64,000 nt of DNA, from assembly GCF_003353425.1 (NCBI RefSeq), contig NZ_QRAO01000001.1, positions 1,054,001 through 1,118,000 on the forward strand, read 5' to 3'. Origin of the DNA: Marinirhabdus gelatinilytica (GTDB taxonomy: Bacteria; Bacteroidota; Bacteroidia; Flavobacteriales; Flavobacteriaceae). The notes under the pieces are model-generated. The model saw only the letters and a program-made list of their open reading frames with translations, did not search any database and was not told where the DNA came from. The position numbers were made by a program, and so were the translations under genes. Positions 55,671-63,751 of the stretch are shown here, piece after piece. Positions within the stretch are counted from its first letter, which is position 1. Each line of letters starts with the position of its first letter.

Positions 55671-58526
55671 ATGAAAGAAAACATCCAAAAATTAGTAGAA
55701 TATACAGCCAGATTGGATGGCGATGAAAAGGGAGAAGCTCAAGTATTTTGTGATAGATTTTTTCAGGCATTTGGTCATAATGGATACAAAGAAGCAGGTG
55801 CAACTTTAGAATTTAGAGTCAAATCCAAAAAGACTACCAACTTTGCTGATTTACTGTGGGGGGACAAAGTGCTTATTGAAATGAAAAAAAAGGGTGCTAA
55901 ACTAAAAAGCCATAGGACTCAAATTTTTGATTATTGGTGGAAGTTGAGACCTTCACAACCAAAGTATTCTGTTTTATGCAATTTTGAAGAGTTTATTATA
56001 TATGATTTTTCGCTTCAAGACGAGCCTTTAGATAGAATTGGAATTGATGAATTACCCGATCGATATACTTCATTCAACTTTATGTTTCCGCAACCGGAAA
56101 CACCAATTTTTAGAAATAACCTTGAAGAAGCTACCAGAAAGACTGCCAGTTTAGTGGCAGCTGTATTTAATTCATTTTTAGAACGCGGAGAAGATAGGAT
56201 TAGAGCTCAAAGGTTTATACTACAAGCTATATTTACGATGTTTGCGGAAGACTATAACTTGCTTCCCAAAGATATTTTCACACAAATATTGATTGATTGT
56301 CAAAATGGTAATGGAAACAGTTATGATTTAATTAATGGTCTTTTCCAACAAATGGACTCGAAAATACCTGCTCGTGGTGGTAGGTTTAAGGATGTCCAGT
56401 ATTTTAATGGTGGACTCTTTTCGATTCCGGAGGCAATCGAATTAACGAGGGATGAATTAGATATGCTGAGACAGGCAGCCTCACGTAAATGGAGCAAAGT
56501 TAATCCTGCTATTTTTGGAACTATTTTTCAAAAAAGTATGGGTACGGATGCGAGACACGCATTTGGTGCTCATTTTACATCCGAACTGGATATTCTAAAA
56601 ATTGTTCAACCAACAATTATTCAACCGTGGCGAGAAAAAATTGTAAAAGCAAAGACACTTAAAGAGATGAAATCTTTGCGGAAAGCTCTTGCAAGTTACA
56701 AAGTTTTAGACCCAGCTTGTGGAAGTGGAAACTTTCTATATGTTGCTTATCGTGAATTGAAGAGAATTGAGATGGAACTGCTTGATAAAATTCATATTGA
56801 ATTTCCAAAAAGCGCTTCTGAAATAGGTACGCAAAGTATTGTTAGTATAAAGCAGTTTCACGGAATGGATTACAACCAATTCGCCGTTGAATTGGCTAAA
56901 GTAACTTTAATGCTTGCAAAAGAAATTTCTATTCAAGAAACTCAAGAATGGATTAATACTATTCAAACAGGCTTAGCATTTCAAATGGAAAATACTTTGC
57001 CTCTCGATAATATGGATGATAATATCATTTTTGCCGATGCACTTTTTATAGATTGGCCTAAAGCGAATGTTATTATTGGAAATCCACCTTATCAGAGTAA
57101 AAATAAGATGGTTAAAGAATATGGTATTGAATATATGAATACTGTGTGGGATGCTTATCCAGAAATTTCAGGTAATGCTGATTATTGTGTGTACTGGTTT
57201 TATAAGGCACATCAAAATTTATATAACGGTGGTTACGCGGGTCTTGTTGGGACCAATACCGTAACTCAGAATTATAGCAGAGAAGGAAGTTTGGATTATA
57301 TTGTTAAAAATGATGGACAAATATTCAATGCAATTGCTTCTCAACCTTGGTCTGGGGATGCAGTAGTATTCGTTTCAATTGTAAATTGGAAGAAGGGAAA
57401 TTTTAAAGGGAAAAAGTTTCTCTATGTAGAAAATGAGAAAAAAGAGCAAGTTGAATACGTGGTTGCTAATATCAACAGTAGCCTTTCTTTAGAAATTGAC
57501 GTAACATCTGCTGAAATTTTGAACTGTAATAAAAAACCAAAAATGGTCTTTCAAGGGCAGACTCACGGAAACTCAGGGTTCCTAATCAGTAAGAAAAAAG
57601 GAATAGAAATTTTAAATGCTAATCCAAATTTTTCTGAAGTTCTAAAACCATTTTTGATAGGTAGAGAGTTAGTTGCATCCGTAAATAGTCAGCCTAATAG
57701 ATTTGTAATTGATTTTACTGGAAAGGATGTCATTGAATCGGCCACCTATAAAAGTCTTTTTGAGATTGTAAAAAAGAAAGTTCAGCCAATTCGGGAAAAA
57801 AAAGCAATAGACCAACAGGAAAAAAATCAAGCTGCTCTTGAAAAAAATGAAAAAGCTAAAACAAATAAGCATCATATAAATTTCTATAATAAATGGTGGT
57901 TGCTTTCTTATGGCAGAGAAGATATGTTAGACGCCATTTCTAAAAGTAAAAGATATATAGCTTGTTCGAGAGTTTCAGCCCGTCCAATATTTGAATTTGT
58001 TTCAAGTAGAATAAGTCCAAATGATGCACTTATGGTTTTCAATTTTCAAGACGACTATACTTTTGGAATCATTCAATCAAGAATTCATATCCTATGGTAT
58101 CAAGAAAAGTGTTCAACAATGAAAGGCGACCCCAGATATACACCAAACACGATATGGGACACTTTTCCTTTTCCACAAAAACCTACTCTAAATCAGATTA
58201 GAAAAGTTTCGAATTCCGCTTTGACTCTACGTCTAAAACGAAATGAAATGATGAAGCGTCATCAATTTACATTGAGAGATATTTATAGAATATTAGAAGA
58301 GCCTGGCAATAATCCTTTAAAAGATTTACACACAGCTTTGGATAATGCAGTTTTAGAAGCATATGGATTCAATAGAAAAAAAGATATTCTAACTCAACTT
58401 TTAGAATTGAATTTAAAAGTCTATTCAAACGAACAAGAAAGTATAGAAGTGCAAGCCCCAGGGCTACCCTCTTTTGTCCAAAACTCAAATGAATTTATTA
58501 GTGAAGATTGTATCAGTTTTTTATAA
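55671..58526 (+). CDS. Type IIL (MmeI-like) restriction-modification enzyme
   Basis: Single-chain R-M protein of 951 aa joining nuclease, helical spacer, adenine-N6 methyltransferase and target-recognition domains. The nuclease D-x9-E-x-K is present (Asp60, Glu70, Lys72 in FADLLWGDKVLIEMKKKG). SAM-binding motif I is DPACGSGNFLYVAYREL (about residue 347) and catalytic motif IV is NPPYQS (about 471). The C-terminal part has the MmeI-class FEFVSSRISPNDALMVFNFQ and PRYTPNTIWDTFPFPQ. Methylation and cutting share one recognition domain, so specificity can drift without loss of protection. Composition is AT-rich. It stands alone in the element as probable cargo. Confidence 0.9.
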   Translation: MKENIQKLVEYTARLDGDEKGEAQVFCDRFFQAFGHNGYKEAGATLEFRVKSKKTTNFADLLWGDKVLIEMKKKGAKLKSHRTQIFDYWWKLRPSQPKYSVLCNFEEFIIYDFSLQDEPLDRIGIDELPDRYTSFNFMFPQPETPIFRNNLEEATRKTASLVAAVFNSFLERGEDRIRAQRFILQAIFTMFAEDYNLLPKDIFTQILIDCQNGNGNSYDLINGLFQQMDSKIPARGGRFKDVQYFNGGLFSIPEAIELTRDELDMLRQAASRKWSKVNPAIFGTIFQKSMGTDARHAFGAHFTSELDILKIVQPTIIQPWREKIVKAKTLKEMKSLRKALASYKVLDPACGSGNFLYVAYRELKRIEMELLDKIHIEFPKSASEIGTQSIVSIKQFHGMDYNQFAVELAKVTLMLAKEISIQETQEWINTIQTGLAFQMENTLPLDNMDDNIIFADALFIDWPKANVIIGNPPYQSKNKMVKEYGIEYMNTVWDAYPEISGNADYCVYWFYKAHQNLYNGGYAGLVGTNTVTQNYSREGSLDYIVKNDGQIFNAIASQPWSGDAVVFVSIVNWKKGNFKGKKFLYVENEKKEQVEYVVANINSSLSLEIDVTSAEILNCNKKPKMVFQGQTHGNSGFLISKKKGIEILNANPNFSEVLKPFLIGRELVASVNSQPNRFVIDFTGKDVIESATYKSLFEIVKKKVQPIREKKAIDQQEKNQAALEKNEKAKTNKHHINFYNKWWLLSYGREDMLDAISKSKRYIACSRVSARPIFEFVSSRISPNDALMVFNFQDDYTFGIIQSRIHILWYQEKCSTMKGDPRYTPNTIWDTFPFPQKPTLNQIRKVSNSALTLRLKRNEMMKRHQFTLRDIYRILEEPGNNPLKDLHTALDNAVLEAYGFNRKKDILTQLLELNLKVYSNEQESIEVQAPGLPSFVQNSNEFISEDCISFL

Positions 58527-60464: not shown

Positions 60465-60594
60465 CCCGCTCATTTTTTCTGCTCAGAAAATGCCATTATT
60501 TTTTCTGTAATGGTATGGAATTTTGTCCTGCGAGCGGGACGAAAAGGAATAGCAAGAGGGCAACACGCTTCGCGATGTTGAGCATTCCTTTTCG
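60465..60594. repeat. Nested inverted repeats upstream of the mobilization genes
   Basis: CCCGCTC (60465-60471) pairs with GAGCGGG (60532-60538) and encloses CCATTA/TAATGG. It is followed by CGAAAAGGAAT (60540-60550) and ATTCCTTTTCG (60584-60594), an 11-bp perfect pair that encloses CAACA/TGTTG and CGC-TTC-GCG. Such dense structure next to mob genes is typical of transfer origins or single-strand initiation sites. The gene-free span is 60322-60718. Confidence 0.55.
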
Positions 60595-60662
60595 TTTTTA
60601 AAACATTGAAAATTAAGGTTTTAAGTTATTGATGGTTTGCGCGAAATCAAGAATCGGCATCA

Positions 60663-60719
60663 TTTTTCACGGAAAAACCGTGTCAGACCAGTAAAACCAG
60701 CAAATTTTTCACGGAAAAA
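60663..60719. other. Candidate oriT / relaxosome operator
   Basis: Two exact copies of the palindrome TTTTTCACGGAAAAA at 60663-60677 and 60705-60719, start to start 42 bp (four helical turns). The first also forms CACGG-AAAAA-CCGTG (60668-60682). The second ends on the A of the start codon of the BfmA-like gene. A nicking-accessory protein binding here would also repress its own translation or transcription. Confidence 0.5.
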
Positions 60720-61117
60720 TGGATAAAGGATATGAAAAAGAACGGTTCGAGAGTATAAGTATCAAAGCTTCGGTGGTCAAGAAATTCAGGCGGTTTTCTC
60801 GTCAGCTTTCCAAGTCACAATCGATGACCTTGCTCTTGATGATTGAATTTTTTGAGGACAATGGCATTTCGCCAACCGAGGCTATGGGACCTAAAATGCA
60901 GACGCTTGAAAAGCTAATCAAAAAACGAATCAATGGGGTCATTGCCATTTTGAAGGACATCGAAAAGAGCCAAACCAAGCCGACAGTGGCGATGATGGAA
61001 ACCTTATTTAAGGAAGCCGAACCGAAGAAAAAACCTTTGATTTTGGCAAAGAAAAATGTTGTAAAACAGAACGAAATTGATTTCAAAGAAAACCAAAAAT
61101 CAGATAATGAAATTTAG
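60719..61117 (+). CDS. BfmA/BtgA-type mobilization accessory protein
   Basis: A 132-aa basic DNA-binding protein. Its N-terminal half (SIKASVVKKFRRFSRQLSKS, QSMTLLLMIEFFEDNGISP) resembles ribbon-helix-helix relaxosome proteins of the BfmA/BtgA family from Bacteroides mobilizable elements. A coiled coil and lysine-rich tail follow. It is 12 bases upstream of the relaxase. The start codon lies in a palindromic site, which suggests autoregulation. Confidence 0.8.
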   Translation: MDKGYEKERFESISIKASVVKKFRRFSRQLSKSQSMTLLLMIEFFEDNGISPTEAMGPKMQTLEKLIKKRINGVIAILKDIEKSQTKPTVAMMETLFKEAEPKKKPLILAKKNVVKQNEIDFKENQKSDNEI

Positions 61118-61129
61118 AAAATTAATACT

Positions 61130-62161
61130 ATGTATATAACCATAACGGCTCAAAAAATAGGTGGAGATTATTCACAAAGTTCAGCTGGTTTTGTGGGCTA
61201 TTTGGAAAAAGAAAACCAAGATACGGAACAAGAAAATATGGAACACTTTTTCAATCAATATGGCGATGAAATTTCAGCAGAAGAAGTGGTCAGGGAAATT
61301 GATGGAAATACCGCCAAGCTTAAAAAGAAGGAACCGAAATTCTATTCCATCACAGTCAACCCTTCCAAATATGAATTGAGGTATTTGGAAAATAGCAGTG
61401 CCGATTTAAAGAGGTACACTCGTGAGTTGATGAAAGAGTATGTGAAATCTTTTAACCGTGAAATTAATGGTCGGGCAATTACCGTGGATGATATAAAATA
61501 CTATGCGAAAATCGAACATAAAAGAATTTTTAAGGGAACGGATAGACAGGTTCGGGAAAACCAACCTTTTGCTACAAAAATACTTCGGTTAAAAAATGAA
61601 ATTCGAAAGATAGAAGAAGGCGAAGCCAAAGGAAATACGGAGCGATTAAAATTAAAAATAGGCAAACTGGAACGTGAAGCTCCACACCAACAAAACGGAA
61701 AACGGATTGTCCAGGGAATGGAAAAGGCGGGAGACCAGAGTCACATCCATATTATTGTAAGTAGAAAGGATGCATCCAACTCAGTAAGTCTCTCGCCCGG
61801 AAGCAAGTATAAAGCTTCAGAAGTGGATATGCACGGTAAAATGGTAAAGCGTGGTTTTGACCGGGACCGGTTTTTTGAGCAAGCTGAAAAAACCTTTGAC
61901 AAGACTTTTGGGTATAAAAGAAACTTTGCCGAAACCTATAAAGCCCGAAAAGATTTTGTGAAAAATCCAAACCTCTATTTTGCCGCGTTGATAAAATTGC
62001 CAGCCAATGAAAAGGCGATGGCATTCAAGCTGATGCACAAAACAGGAATACCTGTCATTCCCAATATTCCGACCAGTCAGGCGCAATTGGCTCTGCGAAT
62101 TTTTAAGAGGTTACGACAAGGAGTGGATATTGCTGTTAAATCAAGTTCAATCGGTATTTAA
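61130..62161 (+). CDS. Relaxase/mobilization protein (BtgB/MobB-like, DUF5712)
   Basis: Relaxase of 343 aa that should nick oriT and lead the strand into the recipient. The N-terminal MYITITAQKIGGDYSQSSAG and the His-x-His motif SHIHIIVSRKDASNSVSLSP match the DUF5712/BtgB group. A long charged helical insert lies before the HxH motif. The C-terminal third is basic. It lies between the accessory protein and the coupling protein, the usual order in Bacteroidota mobilizable elements. Confidence 0.85.
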   Translation: MYITITAQKIGGDYSQSSAGFVGYLEKENQDTEQENMEHFFNQYGDEISAEEVVREIDGNTAKLKKKEPKFYSITVNPSKYELRYLENSSADLKRYTRELMKEYVKSFNREINGRAITVDDIKYYAKIEHKRIFKGTDRQVRENQPFATKILRLKNEIRKIEEGEAKGNTERLKLKIGKLEREAPHQQNGKRIVQGMEKAGDQSHIHIIVSRKDASNSVSLSPGSKYKASEVDMHGKMVKRGFDRDRFFEQAEKTFDKTFGYKRNFAETYKARKDFVKNPNLYFAALIKLPANEKAMAFKLMHKTGIPVIPNIPTSQAQLALRIFKRLRQGVDIAVKSSSIGI

Positions 62162-62170
62162 ATGTAGGCT

Positions 62171-63751
62171 ATGGAATTTTATAATTTGTATCACACTCTT
62201 TTATTTTTATCACTGTTTAGTTTGGTCTTTTACTTGCTGTATCGAATTACAAAGTTTGCATTTGCTCTTAATTTTCTGACGACTTTGTCTGTTATTTATT
62301 GGATATATAATTCAGGGCAATTATTTCAAGGTTTATTGTATTTGATATGCCCATTATTATTGGTCAATACAATTTTATATGTTTTTCTTCATAAGGTAGA
62401 TGATTCGGAGAAAACCGAAAATAAATACCGAGTAAGTTTTAGAACGAATAAAGGCAACTTTAAAATTGGAAATATAAAACGGGGTGCATCTGTCATAGGA
62501 TCTGCTGGAAGTGGAAAAACTGAAAGTATAGTGTACGGTTTTCTAACCCATTTCCGAAAAAACAGTTTTTGCGGGATTATCCACGATTATAAGGATTTTG
62601 AAATTACCGAAATGGCGTATCCACTTTTCAAAAATTCTAACATTCCCTTTAAAGTGATTTCTTTTGATAAGATCATTCATCGGGTTAATCCCATTGCACC
62701 GAGGTATTTGGAAAACGAGGAAAGTGTAAACGAGGTGTCCAGGGTATTGATTGAAAATCTGTTGGAACAACGGGAATCTGGCACAACTGGAACAAGCAAA
62801 TTTTTTAATGATGCTGCAGAAGGATTGATTGGCGGGTTGATTTGGGAATTGAAAACATCATACCCCCAATTCTGCACATTACCACATCTAATAGCAGTTT
62901 ATCAGTATCTGGACACAGATAGCCTTGTCGCTTTTTTGGAATCAAATACAACATCGAGAGCGATGGCAGACGCTTTTATAAGTGGAAAAGATTCGGAACG
63001 GCAGACGGCAGGAGTAAAAAGTACGCTGGCCAATGCGCTTAAACGCATTAGCACCCAGCGGATATTTATGGCATTGTCCGCAGACGAAGTTCCCTTAAAT
63101 ATTAATCACACAGAGAATCCTGCGGTAATTTCGGTGGTCAATAATCCTAAATTTGAGACTTCGTATTCGCCCGTAATTGCCACTATCATCCATACTATCA
63201 CTAAACAGATGAGTGTGCACAATTCAATTCCTTCCTTTCTTCTGATGGAAGAAGCACCGACCATTCGCCTATTGAATATGCACCGCATTCCGGCAACGCT
63301 CAGAAGTTATGACATCGCAACTGTTTATGTAATGCAGGATAAAATTCAGAACGATATGATGTATGGTGACAAAGCGAGTAAAGCGATATTGAGCAACCTT
63401 TCCTATCAATTCTTCGGAAAAGTGAATGACCCGGACACCGCTAAATACTATGAGCGCTTTTTCGAAATCGTAAAAAAGGAAACCACAAGCATAAACCGTG
63501 GACACAACCTTAATTTTGATACACGTATCACAACAGGGGAACGAGAAATTCCTAAAATACGAGCGGACCAATTTTTTCGATTAAAGCAGGGGCAATTTAT
63601 TACCTATGCAGATGGAGCTGATAAGAAAGTACAGTTTAAATTGTCGAAGATTAACAGGCAGCTTCCAAACGGAACCAAGGAATATACTAAAGCTGATTTG
63701 CAGGCTAATTTTGATAGGATTTTTCGGGAAGCGCGATCGATTTTTGAATAG
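62171..63751 (+). CDS. VirD4/TraG-type conjugative coupling protein
   Basis: Membrane ATPase of 526 aa that links the relaxase-DNA complex to a type IV secretion channel. Three hydrophobic segments fill residues 8-74. Walker A is GSAGSGKT (110-117) and Walker B lies in FLLMEEAPTIRLL (about 355). The C-terminal part contains the TraD/TraG segment YVMQDKIQNDM and GKVNDPDTAKYYERFF. Spacing to the relaxase is nine bases. Its presence means the element brings its own coupling protein, even if the channel is supplied elsewhere. Confidence 0.92.
   Translation: MEFYNLYHTLLFLSLFSLVFYLLYRITKFAFALNFLTTLSVIYWIYNSGQLFQGLLYLICPLLLVNTILYVFLHKVDDSEKTENKYRVSFRTNKGNFKIGNIKRGASVIGSAGSGKTESIVYGFLTHFRKNSFCGIIHDYKDFEITEMAYPLFKNSNIPFKVISFDKIIHRVNPIAPRYLENEESVNEVSRVLIENLLEQRESGTTGTSKFFNDAAEGLIGGLIWELKTSYPQFCTLPHLIAVYQYLDTDSLVAFLESNTTSRAMADAFISGKDSERQTAGVKSTLANALKRISTQRIFMALSADEVPLNINHTENPAVISVVNNPKFETSYSPVIATIIHTITKQMSVHNSIPSFLLMEEAPTIRLLNMHRIPATLRSYDIATVYVMQDKIQNDMMYGDKASKAILSNLSYQFFGKVNDPDTAKYYERFFEIVKKETTSINRGHNLNFDTRITTGEREIPKIRADQFFRLKQGQFITYADGADKKVQFKLSKINRQLPNGTKEYTKADLQANFDRIFREARSIFE

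Follow-up and report, generated by a model that had tools for sequence, protein, structure and literature searches.

A putative oriT and mob control region ahead of bfmA and mobB in Marinirhabdus gelatinilytica: a constant core and a variable pair of candidate BfmA sites

The DNA analysed here, hereafter the window, is a stretch of 64,000 nucleotides from a contig (C1) of Marinirhabdus gelatinilytica. Near its end lie, in this order, bfmA, mobB and the gene of a VirD4-type coupling protein, with SSB and RadC-like genes before bfmA. The coupling protein also matches the NCBIfam model Bacteroid_MobC, at 164.6 bits, below the cut-off of 900. The genes and the features ahead of them are as follows.

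60525-60540, plus strand: further upstream inverted repeat, GTCCTGCGAGCGGGAC, with hairpin arms of at least 6 in relatives
60539-60550, plus strand: left arm of an outer inverted repeat, ACGAAAAGGAAT, 12 bp, 100% complementary to the right arm
60551-60560, plus strand: core AGCAAGAGGG, presumed relaxase recognition/nic region, near-invariant across loci
60561-60580, plus strand: bulged hairpin CAACACGC-TTC-GCG-(A)-TGTTG, adjoining the core, with compensatory changes
60584-60595, plus strand: right arm of the outer inverted repeat, ATTCCTTTTCGT, pairing with the left arm around core and hairpin
60663-60677, plus strand: putative BfmA site 1, TTTTTCACGGAAAAA, with the 11-bp dyad TTTCACGGAAA at 60665-60675
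60678-60704, plus strand: inter-site stretch, including CCAGTAAAACCAG, with a weakly conserved CC..TAAA..GG in some relatives
60705-60719, plus strand: putative BfmA site 2, the same 15-mer, with its 11-bp dyad at 60707-60717 and its last A being the A of the bfmA ATG
60719-61117, plus strand: bfmA, BfmA/BtgA family mobilization protein (NF041200, 109.5 bits, cut-off 24)
61130-62161, plus strand: mobB, MOBB-type relaxase, DUF5712 (PF18976, 381.5 bits, cut-off 25; NF041495, 407.9 bits, cut-off 200)
62171-63751, plus strand: VirD4-type coupling protein (PF02534, 55.7 bits, cut-off 20.1)

In contig coordinates, the relaxase (C1:1115130), the coupling protein (1116447) and TraG (TIGR03783, 1126581-1128971) all fall within 14 kb. 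Farther along the same contig, this TraG-type conjugation ATPase lies about 9 kb, and a tyrosine recombinase domain (1174466-1174924) about 56 kb, beyond the window, which makes it probable that the window ends in the mob region of an ICE. The same genome carries a second related mob set (L022), with its relaxase at C1:919977-921005, TraG at 929422 and a recombinase at 969861; its BfmA is 44% identical to that of the window, and its sites are of a different class, TTTGCGTCAAA/TTTACGTCAAA. An MmeI-like combined methyltransferase/restriction gene (55671-58526, plus strand) sits between a DUF932 gene and the SSB gene, in the DNA just ahead of the mob region. A tblastn search of plasmids with the window BfmA gave no match at E 0.001, though annotated distant BfmA/BtgA genes occur there, and the window relaxase has matches in 122 plasmid records, of which 10 cover over 80% of its length.

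The 15-mer TTTTTCACGGAAAAA is present as exact copies at just two places in the genome, the two sites listed above. As the initial annotation had claimed, these are identical repeats 42 bp apart from start to start, corresponding to four helical turns, and the second overlaps the mob start codon, ending on the A of the bfmA ATG (60719-60721). Its description of them as exact palindromes is too strong, because the 6-bp arms, TTTTTC and GAAAAA, flank an asymmetric ACG. The evidence from the window alone is modest, with 2 matches to the 15-mer at up to 2 mismatches versus 0.94 expected in shuffles. An additional CACGG/CCGTG hairpin had also been proposed, and the hairpin-forming sequence does exist at 60668-60682 (CACGG at 60668-60672, CCGTG at 60678-60682); by eye, L031 keeps it, L032 and L033 keep part of it, and L010 and L026 have lost it, and because of these losses it is not a conserved part. 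The conservation of the inter-site stretch was likewise judged by eye, from 69 distinct 53-mers.

Relatives were gathered by relaxase and BfmA searches, with 16 duplicate or fragment loci removed early; 68 further regions were picked among the family matches listed, favouring strong scores and leaving out many lookalikes of the commonest class. At E <1e-12, and with L001, L002 and L142 left out, this gave 238 loci, 237 with upstream DNA and 195 of them distinct. The best 11-bp dyad pair is 42 bp apart in 158 of the 195 distinct loci and 41-44 bp apart in 176 (42 bp, 158; 43 bp, 11; 41 bp, 4; 44 bp, 3; 33-34 bp, 3; none, 16). An identical scan of a control stretch 345-560 bp upstream found 42 bp in 0/194 and 41-44 bp in 2/194, and a second control stretch, 585-800 bp upstream, gave 0/129 for both. 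With a strict score (at least 6), the pair is at 42 bp in 134/195 versus 0/194 and 0/129 in the controls. Among the first 124 loci with a relaxase homologue, a scoring dyad pair was present in 110 with the spacing fixed at 42 bp, and when spacings of 25-70 bp were scanned freely, 42 bp was best nearly wherever a pair was found. The initial annotation had staked its reading on the spacing and the palindromes being retained in homologous elements, and in most of these loci they are; its proposal of a same-face site pair for the BfmA-like protein in the relaxosome region is supported by the same counts. In some lineages one dyad copy is flipped (L218, L221 and L228; L250, L253, L261 and L269), which is compatible with a symmetric dimer, as such a dimer would tolerate it.

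Several arrangements depart from this pattern. L250, L253, L261 and L269 carry mirror-image sites, ATTATGTTAAT and ATTAACATAAT, at a spacing of 43 bp. In L017, L255 and L259, the BfmA strand reads SRLQ(L/V/I) and the 42-bp pair is absent; GTATCCA- or ATATCCA-type inverted repeats, seen by eye, stand in its place in L259 and L017.

What is conserved among these loci is the architecture, and the site letters vary and track residues of the predicted BfmA strand. The site classes include TTTCACGGAAA, TTTTCAGAAAA, TTTACAGTAAA, TTTGCAGCAAA, TTTGCGACAAA, TTTGCGGCAAA, TTTGCGTCAAA, TTTTACTAAAA and ATTGTAACAAT, and comparison of loci demonstrates that the two copies of a locus change jointly. Position 4 of the arm and its mate mostly change together (C:G, T:A, A:T, G:C), with the exceptions TTTACGTCAAA, TTTTCGTCAAA and TTTCACGAAAA. 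The class goes with the strand F-a-b-I-c-I-K, residues 10-16 in the window protein, as was analysed in 171 of the 195 loci (spacing 41-43; L191 and L268 excluded by hand). For correlations, 100 of the 171 were used, the relaxase being readable in 133 and having at least 250 residues in 100. Over these 100 loci (4950 pairs), the difference between second sites correlates with strand residues 12, 14 and 16 at a Spearman coefficient of 0.954, or 0.913 as a partial coefficient given relaxase distance. Relaxase distance itself correlates at 0.676, falling to 0.053 given the strand, and BfmA distance without the strand at 0.873, falling to 0.108 once the strand is known.

Close relatives make the same point, although the pairs counted are of related loci and are not independent events. 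At relaxase distances below 0.1, the site is shared within one mismatch in 912/912 pairs with the same strand versus 0/89 with a different strand. Where BfmA is at least 85% identical outside the strand, the mean site difference is 0.00 if residues 12 and 14 are both the same (2454 pairs), 84% of 70 pairs are still within one mismatch if one of the two differs, and 0/11 pairs are if both differ. L010 and L147, for instance, share 91% identity outside the strand, and FESLSIK goes with TTTCACGGAAA in the former versus FEKLGIK with TTTTCAGAAAA in the latter. Furthermore, residues 16 and 14 rank first and second among all BfmA columns in the 45-65% and 50-80% identity bands. Since the site letters follow strand residues 12, 14 and 16, BfmA is very probably the binder of the paired sites. 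The residue-to-site code is not universal and depends on the clade, because agreement at residues 12 and 14 no longer predicts the site once BfmA identity falls below 45%: pairs sharing both residues have the same site in 2% of 189 cases at 35-45% identity and in 0/19 below 35%, and residue 14 lies outside the top 8 columns below 45%.

A table assigning a site to each combination of residues b and c was fixed before new loci were fetched, and it covers 57 of 96 held-out distinct loci. For 39 of the 57, the predicted site agreed with one copy or both to within one mismatch, 37 of them exactly. The failures were confined to three combinations (T,R, 13/17; S,S, 3/7; G,R, 2/12), the other classes being right in 21/21; the 13 failed T,R loci all have M-D-D/G-F type sequences, a type absent from the training set. 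Set against the nearest BfmA relative outside the strand as a predictor (48 loci with an aligned pair), both were right in 32, the table alone in 7, the neighbour alone in 0, and both were wrong in 9. On a BfmA tree of 91 of the 171 loci with the strand columns removed (15/87 branches well supported), underpowered sign tests on independent pairs did not reach significance (at best 5 pairs, with a median p of 0.125), and almost no pairs went in the wrong direction. In L215 and L217, the two sites differ, being TTTAGCGTAAA and TTTCACGGAAA beside an S,S BfmA, by eye a possible intermediate in a change of specificity.

The N-terminus of BfmA is predicted to be ribbon-helix-helix (RHH)-like, with the strand F10-E-S12-I-S14-I-K16. 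In the AlphaFold model, residues 1-50 have block means of 90-96 and comprise an extended N-terminus and helices at 17-29 and 34-48; the monomer has no strand assigned, and beyond the RHH part there are helices at 60-84 and 87-98 and then a low-confidence tail. Most of the top structural matches in the PDB are RHH proteins (Arc, CopG, MatP), with weak E-values: the best Foldseek E is 0.43, with CopG at a probability of up to 0.96 and a target TM of 0.8. Arc (1bdv_D) matches with Z 7.1 over 50 residues, model residues 2-51 falling on Arc 1-50, which places residues 12 and 14 at Arc positions 11 and 13, base-contacting residues in that protein. A sequence search of the PDB with the BfmA alignment gave nothing meaningful (best E 0.35). 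The structure prediction is strongly suggestive of an RHH fold.

The initial annotation had placed the nick, with oriT, at the palindromes, and for the nick the comparison does not support this. The best nic candidate is presumed instead to be the core AGCAAGAGGG together with the covarying bulged hairpin at 60551-60580. Allowing up to 2 mismatches, a 14-base pattern starting AGCAAGAGGG is found upstream in 192 of the 195 loci (missing in L165, L213 and L027), and core positions 0-6 and 8 have a conservation of 1.0 in 191 distinct stretches. The hairpin was analysed in 112 of the 192 cores. Pairs 11-17 are Watson-Crick in 110-112 of these divergent loci and pair 10 in 79, and a one-base bulge fits all 112 (0 or 1 allowed). 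Compensatory changes are seen at pair 14 (A:T, G:C, C:G) and pair 15 (C:G, T:A, G:C). In the 50 loci with a non-majority left arm, pairing with their own right arm is 7.84/8 versus 5.93 with the majority right arm; in a control with equal fitting freedom, the values are 7.68/8 with the own arm versus 6.44 with that of another locus. An unbulged register was rejected for its poor fit (mean 5.12/8 versus 4.53) and replaced by the bulged one. By eye, the outer inverted repeat around core and hairpin is not kept in all relatives, and the upstream inverted repeat has hairpin arms of at least 6 in 69/112 relatives versus 14/560 simple shuffles. By analogy with other relaxases, we infer a nick on the minus strand within CCCTCTTGCT, 3' of the hairpin.

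In its own genome, AGCAAGAGGG occurs 6 times, and the hairpin is found only at the two relaxase-linked copies. In viral contigs, the exact core pattern occurs in 3 stretches, two of them alike; tblastn detected neither relaxase nor BfmA in the DNA available around them, and a hairpin of this kind was not visible by eye. A blastn search of plasmids with 76 bases around the core gave none. Sixteen distant MOBB gene sets were also scanned, namely 10 of 12 plasmid stretches (L274 and L283 being without upstream DNA) and 6 genome loci. A core-like motif, AGC[AG]AG.GG, lies upstream of 10/16 of these sets (other families, plasmids), often followed by a hairpin, in a count made without a control; a dyad pair at 41-44 bp is found upstream of 0/16. 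The 42-bp dyad pair is therefore, as far as these sequences indicate, not part of every MOBB oriT, and the core accompanies the relaxase and the dyads this branch of BfmA.

The distance between core and sites changes in helical steps. In the window, the core starts 112 bp before site 1 and 114 bp before its 11-bp dyad. Over 171 loci, the distances to site 1 are 93-94, 102-107 and 112-118 bp, none being at 95-101 or 108-111, and so form clusters at about 94, 104 and 115 bp with one turn between; a distance of 99 is found in one locus outside the 171. The set was thinned to 88, 60, 42 and 28 loci. In the 28 divergent loci (<65% BfmA identity), the best period is 10.5 bp (R 0.74), and in all 171 unthinned it is 11.5 (R 0.82), a value put down to close relatives. 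The distance from site 2 to the ATG also gives an R of 0.69, because most loci share one value. Four turns between the sites and whole turns to the core favour a role in the relaxosome over that of a plain operator.

Taken together, these results suggest, with a probability of roughly 0.75, that 60525-60719 is the MOBB-type oriT and mob control region of a flavobacterial conjugative element, in which a constant core and hairpin are read by MobB and a variable, helically phased docking pair by BfmA. In the constant layer, the MobB relaxase would recognise the core and bulged hairpin, and the nick would most likely be made there. In the variable layer, two 11-bp pseudo-palindromes four turns apart would each physically bind one BfmA dimer through its RHH strand. 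BfmA, lying on one face of the DNA and helically in phase with the core about 10 turns off, would position or recruit MobB and perhaps also the coupling protein. Because site 2 covers the bfmA start, BfmA binding may also repress the bfmA-mobB-T4CP operon, and such autoregulation is plausible. In addition, we lean slightly towards a natural, modular lock on oriT specificity, in which strand residues and paired sites have switched together repeatedly while relaxase and core changed little. Flavobacteriaceae elements would then have at least nine specificity classes built on one scaffold, and the geometry, four turns between sites and about 9, 10 or 11 to the core, would be set by a helically phased relaxosome.

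It might instead be supposed that the palindromes are an operator only, through which BfmA represses its own operon without contributing to the relaxosome. Site 2 does end within 4 nt of the assigned ATG in 42 of 59 thinned loci, and MobC of RA3, an RHH protein, autoregulates mobC-nic via a palindrome whose deletion left transfer unaffected when the operon was otherwise driven (PMC4175270); in the same system, however, operator mutations cut mobilization of test plasmids 2-3 fold. Furthermore, a fixed 42-bp pair is needless for a single operator, the pair stays in helical phase with the core, and in the other 17 of the 59 loci a gap of 9-37 nt separates the end of site 2 from the assigned ATG, with the site spacing unchanged. 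A common promoter motif was not found either, as the promoter-like TANNTTTG, the Bacteroidetes -7 box, occurs in only 3 of the 195 upstream stretches. An operator alone is thus unlikely. The 9-37 nt loci equally argue against the repeats acting as RNA in the 5' leader and masking the bfmA start from ribosomes, an idea suggested by the overlap of site 2 with the start codon in the window. Some lineages have one copy flipped, and the letters follow protein residues, fitting recognition of double-stranded DNA, so that this is the least probable of the alternatives.

A nick at or between the palindromes, with the relaxase reading the CACGG/CCGTG hairpin or the CCAGTAAAA middle, is decidedly improbable. 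It could draw on the hairpin-forming sequence there and on the CC..TAAA..GG middle seen by eye in some loci, but the hairpin is lost in two relatives, the site letters ignore relaxase divergence once the strand is given, and the upstream core is better conserved and has the covarying hairpin. Very improbable is a partition function, with the sites centromere-like for an RHH protein and not concerned with transfer. ParG, a partition protein, appears low in the BfmA fold list, and a ParB-domain gene lies 6-8 kb upstream, but there are two sites only and no array. Moreover, among 8 plasmid stretches where a BfmA/BtgA gene is annotated, the relaxase gene is its immediate neighbour in 7 and is separated from it by a single small gene in the remaining one, and a coupling-protein gene follows the relaxase in 6.

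For an oriT with a docking pair, known systems, above all SmpO and its oss sites but also PcfF and RA3 MobC, show by analogy that each step proposed exists elsewhere, and on the best reading the pair would work like the staphylococcal sites. SmpO and the ossA/ossB sites belong to pWBG749-family oriTs of Staphylococcus and, in the passages available (PMC4652767, PMC8136818), resemble the present system in several ways. There too the accessory protein is RHH-like and its gene neighbours that of the relaxase, oriT holds a pair of short specificity sites at a near-fixed distance (65-67 bp there, 42 bp here), copies may be flipped, a residue of the predicted strand region (residue 7) switches specificity, and this specificity can vary to some extent on its own while other parts of the cluster do not. 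The likeness is by mechanism only: those passages describe staphylococcal plasmids with relaxase SmpP and sites GNNNNC, one of them within an inverted repeat beside the core, whereas here 11-bp dyads both lie outside the core hairpin, with a MOBB relaxase, in conjugative elements of Bacteroidota. RA3 (IncU) MobC, in its abstract (PMC4175270), is likewise an RHH protein with a palindromic operator, a mobC-nic operon beside oriT and a dual role as autorepressor and in transfer, but it clusters with auxiliaries of MobP relaxases and has a single operator between promoter boxes, and that abstract-level account is without paired sites or a residue code. PcfF of pCF10 is again an accessory protein of the RHH type; it binds oriT and touches the relaxase via a C-terminal stalk, and BfmA likewise has predicted helices after its RHH part. 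PcfF comes from an enterococcal plasmid and has been shown to bend DNA (PMC6514445).

Closer by name are BtgA and BtgB of the Bacteroides plasmid pBFTM10, which share the NCBIfam family name BfmA/BtgA; binding of BtgA to oriT was reportedly the subject of an original study on pBFTM10. Papers on the Bacteroides CTn341 mob operon and on BtgA binding may describe related sites. Three of our loci (L121-L123) are judged to be of the BtgA/BtgB type. The 16 distant BfmA/BtgA loci examined here have an AGCAAG core in 10/16 and, unlike the window, the dyad pair at 41-44 bp in none. In the passages available, BtgA is said to bind the pBFTM10 oriT (PMC10865816), MOBB relaxases are reported as Bacteroidetes-specific (PMC3158045), and the CTn341 nick site is mentioned without its sequence (PMC5729914). 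SmpO already provides a case of an RHH-type accessory protein that has paired specificity sites. A BfmA site code was not found in the open-licence literature searched, and as far as that search goes, the 42-bp BfmA pair, its residue dependence, and the core with its covarying hairpin in flavobacterial MOBB elements are new.

If true, this reading would give about 190 loci an oriT open to testing, its core, hairpin and docking sites being named, and would make oriT predictable in environmental Bacteroidota. It would also add a second, independent case in which the strand residues of an RHH-type accessory protein determine the choice of oriT. The idea that variable sites keep co-resident elements apart was rejected, as co-resident pairs share a site more than expected (13/40 versus 5.5, P 0.003 for that many or more, among 105 chosen loci). 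Finally, a second dyad pair, TTTCGCTGAAA/TTTCGCCGATA, 50-51 bp apart and about 730-745 bp upstream of the relaxase, was seen in L004, L007, L034 and others; a pair of this type, not listed for the window, is present in many relatives.
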